From assembly GCA_020427155.1 (NCBI GenBank), contig JAGQOW010000003.1, positions 1 to 64,000 on the forward strand: a stretch of DNA of 64,000 nt, written 5' to 3'. The stretch is from Planctomycetales bacterium. GTDB taxonomy: Bacteria > Planctomycetota > Planctomycetia > Pirellulales > Lacipirellulaceae. The number at the start of each line of letters is the position of its first letter. Positions within the stretch are counted from its first letter, which is position 1. The translations under genes were made by a program, and so were the position numbers. Shown piece after piece: positions 4,359-27,500 of the stretch. The notes under the pieces are model-generated. The model was not told the origin of the DNA. It saw only the letters and a program-made list of their open reading frames with translations, and searched no databases.

Positions 4359-5519
4359 GTGTCACTCAACTATCGCGAACTAAAGCGACGTTACGATTTG
4401 GATGGGCCTGAGAAGACGGTCCAACATCTTTCGGAAGCCCTGCAGGAAGGGCATTTGCGACCCGAGGAATTCAGCATACGCGACCTGGCAGAATCGCTTG
4501 TGCCTGACGGACGCGAGTGGGTGCGGATGCTCGATCCTCGCTCAGGCGGCAGCGTCAGTGTGGTCGAGGCGACCGAAGGAGTCGATGTCACGGCCTTTCT
4601 CAATATTACGGGGCAGGTGATCTACTCGAAGATCCTGGATGCCTACGAGCAAGACGCCTTTGTCGCCTCGAAACTTGTGCAGAGCATTCCTACGCGTCTC
4701 GACGGCGAGAAGATCCCAGGCATTACCCGCATCGCGGAAGAGATCGACGAGGTCGCACCAGGGATGCCCTACCCGAATCTTGGGTTTGGCGAGGATTACG
4801 TCGAAACTCCTCCGACATCGAAACGAGGCTTCATCGTGCCGGTGACCAAAGAGGCGATCTTTTTCGATCGTACCCATTTGATTCTCAGCCGGGCTGCAGA
4901 AGTGGGCGAGGTGTTGGGGCTGAACAAGGAGAAGCGAATACTCGACCTGGTAATTGGGGCCACCAACAACTACAAGTCGAACGGCACCAGTTACAACACG
5001 TACTACACCACTGGCCCGTGGGTCAACGAGCTGTCGGGCAATGAGCTAGTGGATTGGACCAATGTGGATGCGGCCGAGCAGGTATTTTCCGAGATACTTG
5101 ATCCACATACCGACGAGCCTGTGCTAGTGAAAGCTACGACGGTTCTGGTCATGCCTGCTTACCGTCATGCGGCTCATCGCATCTTTAACGCGGCAGAGAT
5201 CAGCTATTCTGGCGCCGGCGCTGAGACCGAAACCACGGCGGCGAATCCGCTAGGCAATTATCGAGTGGAAGAAAGCCGTCTGGCCTATCGGCGCATCTTG
5301 GCGACGGGGGAAGCGGCGGCAGATGCGAAGAAGTGGTGGTTCATCGGCGATTTCCGCAAGGCTTTTGCCTACATGGAGAATTGGCCGATCACGGTCACCC
5401 AGGCTCCGCTCAACAGTGAAGCCGATTTCAATAACGACGTTGTGCTGCGGTTCAAGGCTAGCGAGCGAGGCGCTGCTGCGGTGTTGAACCCACGCTATGT
5501 CGTGAAGTGTACCGGTTAG
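4359..5519 (+). CDS. Phage major capsid protein
   Basis: 386 residues, starting at GTG 4359 with AAAGGAG eight bases upstream. Position, size and composition fit a major capsid protein of HK97 fold: a helical N-terminal arm (about 1-55) with a charged character, then the domain with GGSVSVVEATEGVDVTAF, an early TPPTSKRGFIVPVTKEAIFF strand-helix region, and a C-terminal stretch ending in RYVVKCTG. The open frame is intact. It is flanked by the protease/decoration genes and by further small structural genes in one direction. Identification rests on synteny plus length. Confidence 0.75.
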   Translation: MSLNYRELKRRYDLDGPEKTVQHLSEALQEGHLRPEEFSIRDLAESLVPDGREWVRMLDPRSGGSVSVVEATEGVDVTAFLNITGQVIYSKILDAYEQDAFVASKLVQSIPTRLDGEKIPGITRIAEEIDEVAPGMPYPNLGFGEDYVETPPTSKRGFIVPVTKEAIFFDRTHLILSRAAEVGEVLGLNKEKRILDLVIGATNNYKSNGTSYNTYYTTGPWVNELSGNELVDWTNVDAAEQVFSEILDPHTDEPVLVKATTVLVMPAYRHAAHRIFNAAEISYSGAGAETETTAANPLGNYRVEESRLAYRRILATGEAAADAKKWWFIGDFRKAFAYMENWPITVTQAPLNSEADFNNDVVLRFKASERGAAAVLNPRYVVKCTG

Positions 5520-5659
5520 ATCGTGTCGGCGTCAGGAGTCAGGAGACGGGAGCGCCAGGTCGAGAAAGGTGTCTTGGCCACTGGTCCCCGTGTCCTGCAC
5601 CTGGCTTGCTAAGAAGCATGGTGTAATGAATACCACACCCGGTTAGGAGGAATCACTCA

Positions 5660-6145
5660 ATGGCATCAGGCGATTCGCTGATTACTTTGGACGCATTGTC
5701 CAATCGACCTCCGACAAGCAACTATGCTTCGGTGGATTTGCGGAATGGGTTTGTCGTCTTGGATTTTGACGATACGGCCAATGAAACAGCGCTCTTCCTG
5801 GCTGTTTTGCCTAGCCATTACAGCGGGGGGTCGCTGGCAGCCACGGCCGGGTGGACGACCACTTCGGCAACGACGGGCAATGTAAAGCTGCGAATCGAAG
5901 TGACCCGAATAGCGAGCGGGGTGAGTTTTGATGCTCTCCCCGCAGCTGACGGAATGACCGAATTAAGCGTCGGCGCACCTGCCACAGCAGGAGAGTTGGC
6001 CATGGCGCAAACTGCGACGTTTGCCGCCGGGGACGCTGCAGCAGGCGATATGTTGCTAGTAAGTTTCACTCGCCTGGCGTCCGACGCCGGCGATACGATT
6101 GTCGGCGACTTTGAACTGGTTTCGCTTGTGATACTCGAGGCCTGA
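5660..6145 (+). CDS. Phage structural protein of unknown role, beta-rich
   Basis: 161 residues behind a strong TTAGGAGG site. Rich in Ala, Thr, Ser and Val with short alternating strands (VDLRNGFVVLDFDD, NVKLRIEVTRIA, DMLLVSFTRLA), the look of a jelly-roll head-fibre or decoration protein. The 140 bases upstream, after the capsid gene, hold a short GGTGT/ACACC inverted repeat (about 5621-5640). It is almost contiguous with the LamG-like gene downstream (3 bases). No named family recognised. Confidence 0.55.
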   Translation: MASGDSLITLDALSNRPPTSNYASVDLRNGFVVLDFDDTANETALFLAVLPSHYSGGSLAATAGWTTTSATTGNVKLRIEVTRIASGVSFDALPAADGMTELSVGAPATAGELAMAQTATFAAGDAAAGDMLLVSFTRLASDAGDTIVGDFELVSLVILEA

Positions 6146-6148
6146 GCC

Positions 6149-6925
6149 GTGTCATTCTCACTCAATAACAGCAATGCTTTTTACTGCATTTCGTTTCCTT
6201 TGACGGGCTACCCGTTTTCGTTCGCAGGTTGGTTTCGAGTGCCGGCGACGCCCGCAATGACCTATCTCATGGGAGTCGCGAGTCTCGCTACTGGCGCTCG
6301 ATGTGATTTGCTCTATGCGGGCAACGGCTCGAAGGAGGCCATCGCAAGAACGATGTTTGGGAGTTCGGGGTCTGCGTATTCGACAAGTCCCATGGTAGAG
6401 AGCCAATGGCATCACCTGGCAGCGGTGTTTGCTTCGGACAGCGATCGAAAGGTCTATCTGGATGGCGGCAACGTGGGCACAAACAATGTGAGTCTCGCGA
6501 TTGGGCCACTTGATTTCTGCTATTTTGGCAACGGGTACAGTACGACGACGGTTGATGTGGGCGAAATATCGCTGGTCGGAGCGGCGCTGAGCAGCGAAGA
6601 GGTGCTTGCGCTTTCTCGTGGGGTATCGATACTCGCGTTGGCAGACTCGAGTCAGCTGATTACGTACCACGACTGCATCAGAAGTGCCATGCGCCCGAGA
6701 TTGGGGCCCGATTTCTTTTCTAGTGGCAGCCTGGTAGTGAAGGACCATCCTCGGGCGACATATGCCAACGGTGGTACTCCTGTCGCGATGCCCAATCGAA
6801 TCCGCGGGCCATTTCGCATTGAAGAAGCACTTGCTCGGGCCAGTTCCGATGCTGCAGGCCAATGTGCGATTGCCGGTTCTTACGCAGCAAATTCGTTTTT
6901 ACCAGGTGAGGTGGTTAGCCAATGA
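6149..6925 (+). CDS. LamG/concanavalin-like domain protein in phage module
   Basis: 258 residues from GTG 6149. Residues about 20-150 have the LamG (laminin G-like, jelly-roll) signature: FSFAGWFRVPA, SQWHHLAAVFAS followed by RKVYLDGG, and a DVGEISLVGAALSSEEVLAL tail. Such domains bind glycans or protein and occur on phage heads or fibres, so a surface-binding role on the particle is likely. The C-terminal 90 residues match nothing I recognise. Its stop overlaps the next start by four bases (ATGA at 6922). Confidence 0.75.
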   Translation: MSFSLNNSNAFYCISFPLTGYPFSFAGWFRVPATPAMTYLMGVASLATGARCDLLYAGNGSKEAIARTMFGSSGSAYSTSPMVESQWHHLAAVFASDSDRKVYLDGGNVGTNNVSLAIGPLDFCYFGNGYSTTTVDVGEISLVGAALSSEEVLALSRGVSILALADSSQLITYHDCIRSAMRPRLGPDFFSSGSLVVKDHPRATYANGGTPVAMPNRIRGPFRIEEALARASSDAAGQCAIAGSYAANSFLPGEVVSQ

Positions 6926-23305: not shown

Positions 23306-24073
23306 ATGCTCCGCGACCATCCCCTCACCTGGTTGTTTGTCATCGCGTCGATTTGCGTCGATCTGGTGTTTGTGATGACCGAGCGAGGTGATGATCTCTC
23401 GGCTTTCCGGTTTGGCATGGTCTTGGGGCAACTGGCGGCCGTGGCGATCTGGACCTCACGAACCCAGCTTCATCGTCTTGCCAAGGTGAGCATACTTACT
23501 GCGGTAGTGGGGTTGTTGGCCAACATTCGGGTGGACGCAGCCCCAATCTCGATTTGGCTGGCTTTTGATGTGCTCTATGTGTCTGCGATTGCCGTCGCAA
23601 CTTCCTTGAGTGATTCGATCCACGATAAGCGAAGATTTCAGTCAGGGATGGATCGTAAGCGATGGCAGATCTCGCTCGTCGAATGTATGGGCTGGCTCAC
23701 CCTTGCTTCGATCCTAAGTTTTGGGGCTCGTCATATGGACTACTCCTTTCTCAGCCCAGAAGTGATCGATGAGGTCTTGGCCACGCTGGCGGTTCCGATC
23801 GTATTGGCAATACTCACGCGGCGCGATCTGCGAGATGTAAGAAGAGCGGGCGCCCTCATTGTTCTCACGGTTCTCATTGCTGCCGCGGCCTGGTTGGCAA
23901 GCGAACAGCAGAATGGCGGCTACGTAGTATTCATTCAGTTTGCCTACCTGGTCTGCTGGTTGACCACACTTAGCATGGACAACTCCATCGTAGAGTCGCA
24001 AGAGTTGCGGAGGTCGCTGATAAGGGCCAGTGCAAACGCCGAGCCGCATAGGCTATTCAATCCGCAAGATTGA
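23306..24073 (+). CDS. Integral membrane protein, unknown
   Basis: 255 residues with about seven hydrophobic segments (for example LTWLFVIASICVDLVFVM near the N terminus and AGALIVLTVLIAAAAWLA around 190-207). No family motif is recognised. The last 21 bases overlap the convergent methyltransferase gene. Function unknown. Confidence 0.65.
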   Translation: MLRDHPLTWLFVIASICVDLVFVMTERGDDLSAFRFGMVLGQLAAVAIWTSRTQLHRLAKVSILTAVVGLLANIRVDAAPISIWLAFDVLYVSAIAVATSLSDSIHDKRRFQSGMDRKRWQISLVECMGWLTLASILSFGARHMDYSFLSPEVIDEVLATLAVPIVLAILTRRDLRDVRRAGALIVLTVLIAAAAWLASEQQNGGYVVFIQFAYLVCWLTTLSMDNSIVESQELRRSLIRASANAEPHRLFNPQD

Positions 24074-24877
24074 CCTTGGTTTGTCAGTTTCTGTTCGCCG
24101 TGACTTGATGCGCACGTACGGAGCGACGTACTGCGAGCGGTGTGCAAACGTTCCCACTTCGGCTTGCGGCTTCGCGTGCATCGGTTCCACAAGATCTTCA
24201 ATCACAAATCCCGCTCGGCAGATTCCGCCCAAGAGCTCTTCCCAGCGATGCAAGAATTCTTGCGTGCCGGGTTCGCGGGTGCGACACGGCTCGGCCGAAG
24301 GCAACGGGCCGGTTCGATAGTAGGGTTCGCGCAGGCGGTAGAGATTGCCTTCGGGGCGAACCTCAGTTTGCAGGCTAATGGGCGACTTGTGTTGACTGAC
24401 GTAGAGACCGCCAGGCCGAGTCACGCGGGCGATCTCGCGAAACACCAGTCTGACATCTGGCACGTAACAGGTGCTTACCGGGTGGATAACCAGATCGAAC
24501 TGGCTGTCGGCGAGCATCGGCAGGGCGTCCATCGACGTTTGAATGGGAGTGATCTGCAAATCCCGCTCGGCAGCAACCTGCCGGTCGAGAGCGAGCATTT
24601 CGCTACTCAGATCGACAACCGTCACCTTCGCTCCTGCCGCAGCGTACAAGGCGCTGTGGCGCCCTCCGCCTGCTGCCAGGCATAAGACGCTCCAATTGGC
24701 AATGTCCGGACCCAGCCAACCCAATGGGTCGACCGTTTGCAGCGGCTGCCGTAGCTCGTCATCTGTAGCCGGTTGCGCCAAGGGAACTTGTTGCCGGGCT
24801 AAGGCATCCCAGGCGCGCTGATTGTGATGAAGTACAACCGAGTCGGCAGGCAAGGGATCGTCGTTTTCAGCAGTCAT
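24053..24877 (-). CDS. Class I SAM-dependent methyltransferase
   Basis: 274 residues. SAM-binding motif I VLCLAAGGGRHSALYAA (about 64-80), an acidic strand end VTVVDLSSEML, QFDLVIHPVSTCYV for motif II and RPGGLYVSQH after it. Substrate cannot be told; the C-terminal part is rich in Arg and Glu. It ends inside the convergent membrane-protein gene. Confidence 0.8.
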   Translation of the reverse strand: MTAENDDPLPADSVVLHHNQRAWDALARQQVPLAQPATDDELRQPLQTVDPLGWLGPDIANWSVLCLAAGGGRHSALYAAAGAKVTVVDLSSEMLALDRQVAAERDLQITPIQTSMDALPMLADSQFDLVIHPVSTCYVPDVRLVFREIARVTRPGGLYVSQHKSPISLQTEVRPEGNLYRLREPYYRTGPLPSAEPCRTREPGTQEFLHRWEELLGGICRAGFVIEDLVEPMHAKPQAEVGTFAHRSQYVAPYVRIKSRRTETDKPRSILRIE

Positions 24878-24952: not shown

Positions 24953-26203
24953 TCAGTACTGAGACCGACGACTTCTTCTTGGGACCTGGCTAAGGAGCAG
25001 CGATCCGCCAATCAACAGCAGTATGGAATCTGGTTCTGGAACTGTGGTCCCGAGAACGTTGGTAGGATTGACGTTAAACTGTCGCTGCCAAACCAAGAAG
25101 TCGCGACCGTCCACATCTTGGTCTCCGTCTGCGTCACCTAACGATCTTGTTGCGTTATCGGCCAAGCCGAAGTTCTGTTCCCAGATGGCTCGATCTGTGC
25201 CGTCGACCAGGCTGTCGCCATTAAAATTGGCATTCTCGGGCGGTAGGGGCTCGATGAATGTGACGAAGGTGTCCTGACTAAGAAAGCCGAAGTCGGCCAT
25301 CAGTGCCAGCCTGCCTCCGTCGGGTCCTGCAAATGGTTCAAACGCTTGCGAACCGGCGTCGAACTCAATCGCCGTGGCAAACTGATACGGGTTGCCATTG
25401 GTGTCGAATGAAACTTCCGCAAGAGGTGATCCTTCGAGTGAAAACAGCCCCCCACTACCAGTACTGAGGAGATCGCCTTCACTGTCGACGATCAGACCGG
25501 CAGCAGACTGCATATTGTCAAGCAGCAGTTCCAGGGGATCAAACTGCAGATTGCCAGTCGTCTCGGTAATGGGGAGTCGGTGCAGGCGGCCCTGGAAAGT
25601 GCTGAAGTCGGAATCGAGGACCAGTAGGTCGCCGCTGGCATTGAAGGCCAAGCCGGCTCCGTAGTCTAAGCCTGTGGCCGCTGTTGTCGTGCTGCCATTG
25701 GAGCGATTTAACATGAGAATCTGGCCAAGGTTATCGCCCAACGCAGTGGATACGAAGATTTCGCCCGAGCTGCGAACGGCAACGTCGGCTATCGCTGGAA
25801 TGCCTGTCGCTATGGTTTGCTTTACACCGGCCTTGCTCACCGAGTAGAGCCGGCCATCTGCGGAGTTGTCGGTGATCAACAAACTGTCTGTCACAGGATC
25901 GTAGGACATTCCGCCTACGTAAAAGCTGCTGGGGTCGTCGCCTACGATTGGCAGGTCCGTGCCAAAGGAGTAATCCGATTGAATCACTCGTATGGTGGTC
26001 GCATTTCCTGACTCGGCATTCTCCAGGGCATAAAGAACGCCATTGTTGTCGAAGGCCAACCCTACCGGTGGGGCATTGAGCGCAACGGTATGTTTCGAGT
26101 AGCCCGGAGGCAGGGCGGAGGCACGACACGCGATCAGGCAAAAGATCAGGCAAAACGCGGCCTGTCTCCAAGAGGCTAGATTGCACTGAGTCTGGTATTT
26201 CAT
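24953..26203 (-). CDS. Exported beta-propeller protein with dockerin-like repeat and PEP-CTERM anchor
   Basis: 416 residues from ATG 26203. Signal peptide 1-30 (hydrophobic FCLIFCLIAC, cleavage after ASA). About 31-330 is made of repeated propeller-type blades: PPVGLAFDNNGVLYALEN, VGGMSYDPVTDSLLITDN, IADVAVRSSGEIFVSTAL, AGLAFNASGDLLVLDSD, AGLIVDSEGDLLSTGSG. Then a calcium-binding, dockerin-like region with NFNGDSLVDGTDRAIWEQNF and DADGDQDVDGRDFLVWQRQF, and a C-terminal PEP-CTERM (VPEPDSILLLIGGSLL plus a basic tail). So it is exported, probably surface-attached. It follows the DUF1559 gene by 22 bases in an operon led by a cobalamin riboswitch, which suggests a role in cobalamin capture; that role is inferred. 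Confidence 0.85.
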   Translation of the reverse strand: MKYQTQCNLASWRQAAFCLIFCLIACRASALPPGYSKHTVALNAPPVGLAFDNNGVLYALENAESGNATTIRVIQSDYSFGTDLPIVGDDPSSFYVGGMSYDPVTDSLLITDNSADGRLYSVSKAGVKQTIATGIPAIADVAVRSSGEIFVSTALGDNLGQILMLNRSNGSTTTAATGLDYGAGLAFNASGDLLVLDSDFSTFQGRLHRLPITETTGNLQFDPLELLLDNMQSAAGLIVDSEGDLLSTGSGGLFSLEGSPLAEVSFDTNGNPYQFATAIEFDAGSQAFEPFAGPDGGRLALMADFGFLSQDTFVTFIEPLPPENANFNGDSLVDGTDRAIWEQNFGLADNATRSLGDADGDQDVDGRDFLVWQRQFNVNPTNVLGTTVPEPDSILLLIGGSLLLSQVPRRSRRSQY

Positions 26204-26225: not shown

Positions 26226-27101
26226 TCAGTGAACTGTATCGATAGGTATTTCGTCGCCGTGGCGTGTGCAAAGTGCTTTGAGAACCACAATGTCAGTAGA
26301 TTCCTTGAAGAACATCACGCTGGCGTCGCAGCGAGCGACAAGCGCACCATTGGGGTGGTCGCTCCAAATCTCGTTGTTTTGCTGCCGATTGATAGGCCCA
26401 CTAAGGTCGAAGATGTTTTCGCCGTTGAGCCATTCACCATCCATGGTACGGCCTCGACCGACGTCTTCAGCAATCGCCAGCGTATGGCTGGCGCCGTCGG
26501 TAATCTCTTTGAGTGCAATTGGACGGTCGTAGAGCAAGACGCCATTGGCTGAGGGCGACACGAAAGCCGCACCAAAATTGCCCCCGTAGTCCATTGCCGC
26601 CAGTGCCGGAATACCATCGGCCCGAGGAGCCATGAAGTCACCTTCGCGCTCGGCAGCAAAGCGAGTTGTGCTAGGACAGAGGAAGACTGCAACTCGCGTG
26701 CTTCCCGCGGGAGCGTTTGTGGGGCTGTCATAAGCAGACAGCAGATCGAGCTGTTCCCAGAGTGGGGTTTGCTCTAGGTAGGGCAGAGTATCTGCTGCCC
26801 AAGAGAGCTGTTTGCCGGCGGGATTCTTGTACGGAGATCGCTTGTCGGAACAGCCAATAGGTAATGCATTGTGAGTGTCGTGGTAGCTGGTCAAGCCGAT
26901 GCCGATTTGACCGAGGTTATTCTGGCATTGAATCCGCCTGGCCGCTTCTCGTGCGGCCTGAACTGCCGGAAGCAGCAATGCAACGAGCACGCCGATAATG
27001 GCGAGAACGGCCAGAAGTTCCACCAGCGTGAAACCACGATATTGGCCGTGCCGCGACTCTTGAGAAAAAGATGAAAACACGTCGTGCCACTTCCAACTCA
27101 C
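26226..27101 (-). CDS. DUF1559 pseudopilin-like protein under B12 riboswitch
   Basis: 291 residues from GTG 27101. N-terminal type IV prepilin-like signal RGFTLVELLAVLAIIGVLVA (cleavage after Gly 23) followed by LLPAVQAAREAARRIQCQNN, the hallmark of planctomycete DUF1559. The C-terminal HPNGALVARCDASVMFF is a decayed form of the usual H-x9-DG motif (Asp-Ala for Asp-Gly). Such proteins are abundant in planctomycetes and probably sit in the periplasm or on the surface; their function is unknown. The 5' leader contains a complete cobalamin riboswitch. The propeller gene follows 22 bases on. Confidence 0.9.
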   Translation of the reverse strand: MSWKWHDVFSSFSQESRHGQYRGFTLVELLAVLAIIGVLVALLLPAVQAAREAARRIQCQNNLGQIGIGLTSYHDTHNALPIGCSDKRSPYKNPAGKQLSWAADTLPYLEQTPLWEQLDLLSAYDSPTNAPAGSTRVAVFLCPSTTRFAAEREGDFMAPRADGIPALAAMDYGGNFGAAFVSPSANGVLLYDRPIALKEITDGASHTLAIAEDVGRGRTMDGEWLNGENIFDLSGPINRQQNNEIWSDHPNGALVARCDASVMFFKESTDIVVLKALCTRHGDEIPIDTVH

Positions 27102-27238: not shown

Positions 27239-27249
27239 ACAACATACAA

Positions 27250-27454
27250 CGTGCTGGTAGGTCTTCTGACTCCCAAGCTCAACCAGGCTGGCCTTCTCAC
27301 CGTTGGGGGACGGCAGCGTCCCAAAACGGCAATGGCTTTGCAAGCAGCACCTGATCGATCAATGCTCGGTCACAGCGGCGGGGCCGTCCCGGATTTGCAC
27401 CGGAGTTCCCTGTATGTCGGCTCAAAAACGTTTGAAACCGACCACCAACACACG
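27250..27454 (-). ncRNA. Cobalamin riboswitch aptamer
   Basis: Read on the minus strand, all key parts are present in order: the closing stem 5' side at 27443-27454 with a 3' side at 27250-27258, the conserved GGTGCAAATCC core (27391-27401 region), CGCTGTGACCG (27367-27377), a GGGACG/CGTCCC hairpin (27306-27321 region) and a B12-box-like GAGTCAGAAGACCTACC (27256-27272). It would bind adenosyl- or other cobalamin and lower expression of the DUF1559/propeller operon. The 148-base gap to the GTG start holds the expression platform. Confidence 0.92.
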
Positions 27455-27471
27455 ATCCATTAAACGCTGGC

Positions 27472-27500
27472 AATCTACCGGGAAGCGACGGGAATGTCAA
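27472..27500 (-). promoter_or_regulatory. Promoter of the B12-riboswitch operon
   Basis: On the minus strand: TTGACA (27495-27500), a 17-base spacer, TAGATT (27472-27477). Transcription would start near 27465, just before the riboswitch closing stem. Confidence 0.75.

Follow-up and report, generated by a model that had tools for sequence, protein, structure and literature searches.

Among the closest described counterparts of the protein analyzed here is BtuG, a lipoprotein that caps the TonB receptor BtuB and has been reported from Bacteroidetes only; BtuG2 folds into a propeller of seven blades (PMC6143338, PMC10404256) with a negatively charged B12-binding face (PMC10404256). In BtuB1G1 (PDB 8BLW), the C-terminal 250 residues of BtuG1 form the BtuH domain (PMC10404256). 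A different fold is represented by the DUF4465 proteins, eight divergent members of which (BtuJ1, BtuJ2, and six more) bind B12; the planctomycete Mucisphaera calidilacus is the source of one of them (PMC13398666).

The stretch of DNA analyzed here (64,000 nt, referred to as the window) comes from a Pirellulales planctomycete of the same genus-level group as Bythopirellula that is, by its gene content, auxotrophic for B12. It carries a cobalamin riboswitch followed by genes for a DUF1559 protein and an exported propeller. This operon is probably a cobamide-capture unit induced by B12 starvation, in which the propeller would bind corrinoids and, together with the DUF1559 protein, hold them and pass them on. 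Riboswitch-controlled capture of B12 at the cell surface is known; this operon would add to it another propeller, anchored in another way, and a partner resembling a pilin. The capture reading proposed in the earlier note has good, though circumstantial, support from genomic context and fold. A literature search of partial coverage found no paper that connects B12 in planctomycetes with DUF1559 or with PEP-CTERM propellers.

Organization of the riboswitch operon

The features of the locus are listed in Table 1. The match to RF00174, for which the gathering cutoff is 31.5 bits, spans the full length of the model and is the only cobalamin riboswitch found in the source assembly (5.5 Mb, 87% complete). 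The sigma-70-like promoter sequence next to it was the single match found, against 1.1 expected by chance from the consensus alone. The ATG of the propeller gene lies 22 nt past the DUF1559 stop codon. The earlier note had identified this open reading frame as the second gene of a riboswitch operon, which agrees with the gene order found; its coordinates were also correct, and the strand is minus. Directly behind the propeller gene and on the same strand is a methyltransferase gene that is a possible member of the operon; its position is conserved across 27 genomes of the family and also in other families. On the opposite strand lies a membrane protein gene, which 14 family genomes have at the corresponding site.

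Table 1. Features of the window and of further loci mentioned in the text
Feature	Position	Strand	Evidence
Sigma-70-like promoter match, TTGACA-17-TAGATT, just 5' of the riboswitch	27472..27500	(-)	Consensus match
Cobalamin riboswitch aptamer RF00174, including B12 box	27239..27464	(-)	cmscan, 81.6 bits, E 1.6e-18
DUF1559 (SBP_bac_10), operon gene 1, with N-terminal prepilin methylation motif	26226..27101	(-)	PF07596, E 3.2e-47; N_methyl, E 8e-7
Exported, predicted six-bladed beta-propeller protein, 416 aa, candidate B12-capture protein	24953..26203	(-)	
Signal peptide, residues 1-30, A-x-A before LPPGY	26114..26203	(-)	Sequence; AF2 helix 12-26
Propeller domain, residues 31-322, six repeats	25238..26113	(-)	AF2, Foldseek/VIA
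Dockerin-like Ca-binding repeats, residues 327-376, sub-threshold	25076..25225	(-)	PF00404, E 0.013
PEP-CTERM-like tail (VPEP, hydrophobic stretch, RRSRR), sub-threshold	24956..25045	(-)	PF07589, E 0.049
Class I SAM methyltransferase	24053..24877	(-)	PF08241, E 1.6e-18; cluster C2
Membrane protein	23306-24073	(+)	Weak cyanoexosortase-like profile match, E 0.006
FWVG-family protein (example)	L050:3407-4369	(+)	Alignment A3
Other propeller-like protein	L069:7532-9328	(-)	
Other propeller-like proteins	L107:3396-4415 and 5265-6770		
Other propeller-like protein	L149:1666-2682		
Other propeller-like protein	L168:6000-7019	(-)	
DUF6580 loci	L176:3528-4676; L177:4905-6143; L178:3861-5030; L179; L180; L181		
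Cobalamin riboswitch, first of pair	L117:2149-2368	(-)	
Cobalamin riboswitch, second of pair	L117:2486-2705	(+)	

Domains and predicted fold of the propeller protein

AlphaFold2 run on an alignment of 14 homologs, mostly from riboswitch loci, predicted a complete six-bladed propeller for residues 31 to 322 (pLDDT 92.8, pTM 0.91); this model superseded an uninformative one obtained from the single sequence (pLDDT 36). Six repeats are visible in the sequence: GLAFDNNGVLYALE, GGMSYDPVTDSLLITDN, VAVRSSGEIFVST, GLAFNASGDLLVLD, GLIVDSEGDLLSTG, and AIEFDAG...LALMAD. Among the best 50 Foldseek/VIA matches (E 4e-10, Z up to 26.6), the nearest solved folds were SMP-30, Drp35, gluconolactonases, NHL domains, and Pizza6, with 2p4o the best (Z 26.6 over 255 residues, rmsd 2.5), and by this model the fold is that of an NHL/SMP-30-type six-bladed propeller. 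NHL/SMP-30-like propellers (2p4o, Drp35, PknD, and Pizza6) have the fold and the number of blades in common with the window protein (Z 25-27) but share only 12-19% sequence identity with it, and we know of no link between such six-bladed propellers and B12. Residues 93 to 208 weakly match the ScyD/ScyE family (NF033206), membership in which was rejected at 38.5 bits against a family cutoff of 80.

The earlier note had described a signal peptide, a multi-blade propeller, a dockerin-like region, and a PEP-CTERM anchor. The first agrees with a signal peptide-like N-terminus that has a hydrophobic stretch and an A-x-A site (ASA|LPP), and the second is borne out by the structure prediction. The remaining two are recognizable, the tail by its VPEP, hydrophobic, and basic elements, but both fall below the Pfam cutoffs (16.2 bits versus 22.9 for the dockerin-like part and 14.2 versus 20.7 for the tail). 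Clearer matches to both were obtained for proteins at the same position in other loci, and an exosortase (PF09721) is present in the source genome.

Like BtuG (PDB 3DSM and 8BMX), the window propeller is acidic, encoded in a cobalamin-riboswitch operon, and predicted to be exported and anchored at the surface. However, BtuG has seven blades rather than six of the NHL/SMP-30 type, is a lipoprotein where the window protein has a PEP-CTERM-like tail, and is encoded next to btuB, whereas the window operon has no btuB or other TonB receptor gene. No conserved lipobox cysteine was found at the end of the signal peptide in eight homologs, which have an A-x-A type site instead; an LIAC stretch occurs in the window protein only among the homologs compared. 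No match of the window protein to the YncE/DUF5074-type family (PF16819) was obtained in Pfam up to an E value of 1, and no BtuG entry was among the best 60 PDB sequence matches listed for the propeller family profile. BtuG was likewise not among the best 50 Foldseek/VIA matches, where many propellers tie, so that this is no evidence of a difference. Because of its six blades, its different sequence family, and the lack of a Pfam match, the protein is considered a propeller but not a BtuG homolog, as the earlier note had supposed in calling it unrelated to BtuG.

Linkage of propeller homologs to cobalamin riboswitches

A cobalamin riboswitch was identified in 41 of the 43 genomes of the window's family. 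At 38 of the 46 riboswitch loci with enough downstream sequence, the first gene encodes a DUF1559 protein, and at 37 of these 38 a second protein follows in a position referred to here as the slot, which is occupied by a propeller at eight loci, including that of the window. Across 396 genomes of the order, propeller homologs (E < 1e-20) were found at 14 loci in 13 genomes, and a class-wide search for strong homologs yielded none further. Riboswitch-DUF1559-propeller arrays are present at 10 of the 14 loci, in three families; two of these arrays (L104 and L106) are from other families and encode propellers with approximately 30% identity to that of the window. Three loci (in G023, G038, and G084) run into contig ends, and what is visible of them fits the array: DUF1559 adjoins the propeller in G038, its last residues are visible next to the propeller in G084, and in G023 the contig break lies between the two genes. 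The lone misfit, G308 C106, is a divergent propeller paralog with no DUF1559 before it. The close propeller family occurs once per genome and nearly always in this slot, with Bythopirellula polymerisocia Pla144 being one named carrier.

The earlier note had proposed a search for other riboswitch-linked propellers, with homologs that are never linked to riboswitches speaking against capture; the search found 10 of 14 homologous loci behind a cobalamin riboswitch, so that this objection does not hold. The 10 arrays do not represent 10 independent events, since close homologs share descent, and the two arrays in other families and the exchanges of slot proteins described below weigh more than the array count.

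Other proteins occupying the slot

In most relatives, the slot holds a member of the DUF4465 or FWVG family instead of a propeller. All six DUF4465 slot proteins scanned matched PF14717 (E down to 5e-56), and the best PDB match was 9hmu, the DUF4465 protein D5EK51. DUF4465 proteins of sister genomes thus share the slot with the window propeller, as well as PEP-CTERM and dockerin tails, but BtuJ/DUF4465 (PDB 9FCT, 9I2L, and 9HMU) is a beta-jellyroll, and the propeller is unrelated to it in sequence and fold. In the array, the window propeller takes the place of a BtuJ-type protein. When the full-length propeller HMM was used, weak matches to other proteins in the slot were due to shared dockerin/PEP-CTERM tails; these matches were discarded, and the cores were trimmed afterwards.

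The commonest slot protein behind riboswitch and DUF1559 belongs to the FWVG family, named here for the motif DDIxFWVGxGxNRAAlxIDW. It has no Pfam domain of its own, and no Pfam or PDB match was found except to its dockerin and tail; it is a candidate new B12-binding family. Behind the slot protein, relatives often or usually encode a C6 or C8 protein, which is missing from the window operon. C6 and C8 form one superfamily (hhalign E 8.5e-24, with the tail common to both contributing part of the score). A joint profile of the two had one clear match in the PDB, to residues 387-497 of 8blw chain B (E 2.2e-7), which makes them BtuH-like by profile (BtuH and the H domain of BtuG1: PDB 7BIZ and 8BLW). 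BtuH has a lipoprotein signal, whereas the planctomycete C6/C8 proteins have PEP-CTERM tails. Taken together, the DUF4465 and C6/C8 matches suggest that BtuJ- and BtuH-type proteins exist in planctomycetes in a PEP-CTERM version, encoded downstream of a riboswitch of the same kind.

Other exported proteins, propeller-like as judged by sequence and distant from that of the window, are encoded behind cobalamin riboswitches at L069, L107, L149, and L168; in the L069 protein a propeller-like part is fused to an FWVG domain. These proteins suggest repeated recruitment of propellers.

Exchange of the slot protein together with DUF1559

On a tree of DUF1559, slot type (propeller, DUF4465, or FWVG) changes twice, the minimum possible, compared with 11 and 12 changes at the same loci on trees of the flanking shikimate dehydrogenase (SDH) and methyltransferase, respectively. 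Neither flanking tree is compatible with a single propeller clade, which the AU test rejected (p 8e-5 and 7e-136, respectively). It follows from this contrast that DUF1559 and the capture protein have been replaced as a unit many times at this chromosomal site. The two proteins may thus be physical partners, but close linkage alone would also move neighbors together. G308 breaks the pattern, with a DUF1559 of the DUF4465-associated type before a distant propeller.

At L118, L144, L132-L135, L140, L143, L146, L147, and L163, the gene that directly follows the cobalamin riboswitch encodes another, more distant type of DUF1559. At L118 and L144 it is followed by cobalamin synthesis and transport genes (CobQ-like, BtuF-like, and others).

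Proposed function and alternatives

That the window propeller captures B12 is the reading we favor as likely. At low intracellular cobalamin, the riboswitch would permit expression of DUF1559 and the propeller; the latter would be exported, held at the cell surface via its PEP-CTERM tail, and bind corrinoids, which it would hold with its DUF1559 partner and then pass toward the cell. B12 binding is proposed by analogy: since the same slot in relatives holds a family of proven B12 binders, the propeller is most likely a B12-capture protein that arose within this lineage. The net charge of the propeller core (-25, and negative in 14 of 14 homologs) is in keeping with the negative B12-binding face of BtuG2 (PMC10404256). 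Charge and anchors are weak evidence, however, since many acidic exported proteins of this group carry dockerin and PEP-CTERM tails.

Alternatively, DUF1559 itself may handle B12, with the propeller serving as a scaffold, an adhesin, or a partner that positions DUF1559; the slot proteins would then differ because they act as surface adaptors rather than as binders. DUF1559 is indeed the constant gene behind these riboswitches, and at L118 and L144 it precedes cobalamin genes with no capture protein behind. We nevertheless regard this as unlikely, as planctomycetes have many DUF1559 proteins in contexts that have nothing to do with B12, the neighboring C6/C8 family matches the B12-binding BtuH domain, and the slot family DUF4465 binds B12 alone in the eight cases tested (PMC13398666).

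The closeness of the fold to SMP-30/NHL propellers, which include enzymes, counts against B12 capture and would fit an SMP-30/gluconolactonase-type enzyme with a substrate related or unrelated to B12. However, few polar residues are invariant among the 14 homologs (D72, with D82 and R114 nearly so), and the four-residue metal site of SMP-30/DFPase is therefore not visibly kept in the sequences. The window protein also has no SGL match in Pfam up to an E value of 1, and the slot is one common to binding proteins, making an enzyme highly unlikely. The propeller being a generic PEP-CTERM surface protein that lies behind a riboswitch-controlled DUF1559 by chance would fit the frequency of dockerin and PEP-CTERM tails in the group and the weak profile matches between loci that stem from them, but is more improbable still given a close family with a single copy per genome that is almost confined to this slot (10 determinable arrays), B12-binding families in the slot elsewhere, and a slot that keeps a capture-type protein through repeated swaps.

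If B12 capture by the propeller is correct, surface capture by a propeller would have evolved two or more times, each time from an unrelated propeller and with a different anchor. DUF1559, a family that is expanded in planctomycetes but poorly understood, would thereby gain a first testable role, and the finding would be relevant to the question of how bacteria that need B12 but lack BtuB acquire it. The propeller, FWVG, and C6/C8 form a short list of candidate B12-binding families, reached through their riboswitches just as BtuG, BtuH, and BtuJ were.

Cobamide dependence and uptake genes

B12-dependent methionine synthase (MetH) is encoded in all 12 family genomes examined, and CbiC and CobS were found in none of the 12; the cells should therefore depend on imported cobamides. 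Exosortase is present in 12 of 12. No TonB receptor was found in eight of the 12, including the source genome (87% complete) and three further genomes that carry the propeller (G012, G016, and G028), and these four also had no strong BtuC match; a clear BtuC-type permease was found in one of the 12 only. The import route should thus be other than the textbook one, and the parallel with BtuG on BtuB is incomplete because these genomes mostly lack BtuB/TonB receptors. The absences in these four genomes, together with the lack of a DUF1559 at G308 C106, count against the capture model. It is possible, though doubtful, that uptake independent of TonB receptors proceeds, in planctomycete cells without BtuB or BtuCD, through interchangeable cassettes of a dedicated DUF1559 and one of several unrelated surface binders (six-bladed propeller, DUF4465, or FWVG), from which the pseudopilin-like protein would deliver to an inner-membrane importer, perhaps a DUF4430/DUF6580 pair.

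A DUF6580 membrane protein is encoded in 12 of 12 family genomes, with a small protein beside it in the six loci examined (Table 1). The small protein matched DUF4430, which resembles the C-terminal domain of transcobalamin, in the four cases scanned, those of L176, L178, and L181 scoring over the cutoff and that of L177 just under it. The pair is a candidate cobamide importer for cells without BtuCD; as a riboswitch-linked importer DUF6580 was rejected, since the six loci lie away from riboswitches. At L076, DUF6580 and a BtuF-like protein are encoded behind a riboswitch, and a similar pair is present in L141. Two cobalamin riboswitches lie back to back in L117, 117 nt apart, with that on the plus strand reading toward a ribonucleotide reductase-like open reading frame and that on the minus strand reading toward open reading frames that end in a MetH-like start.
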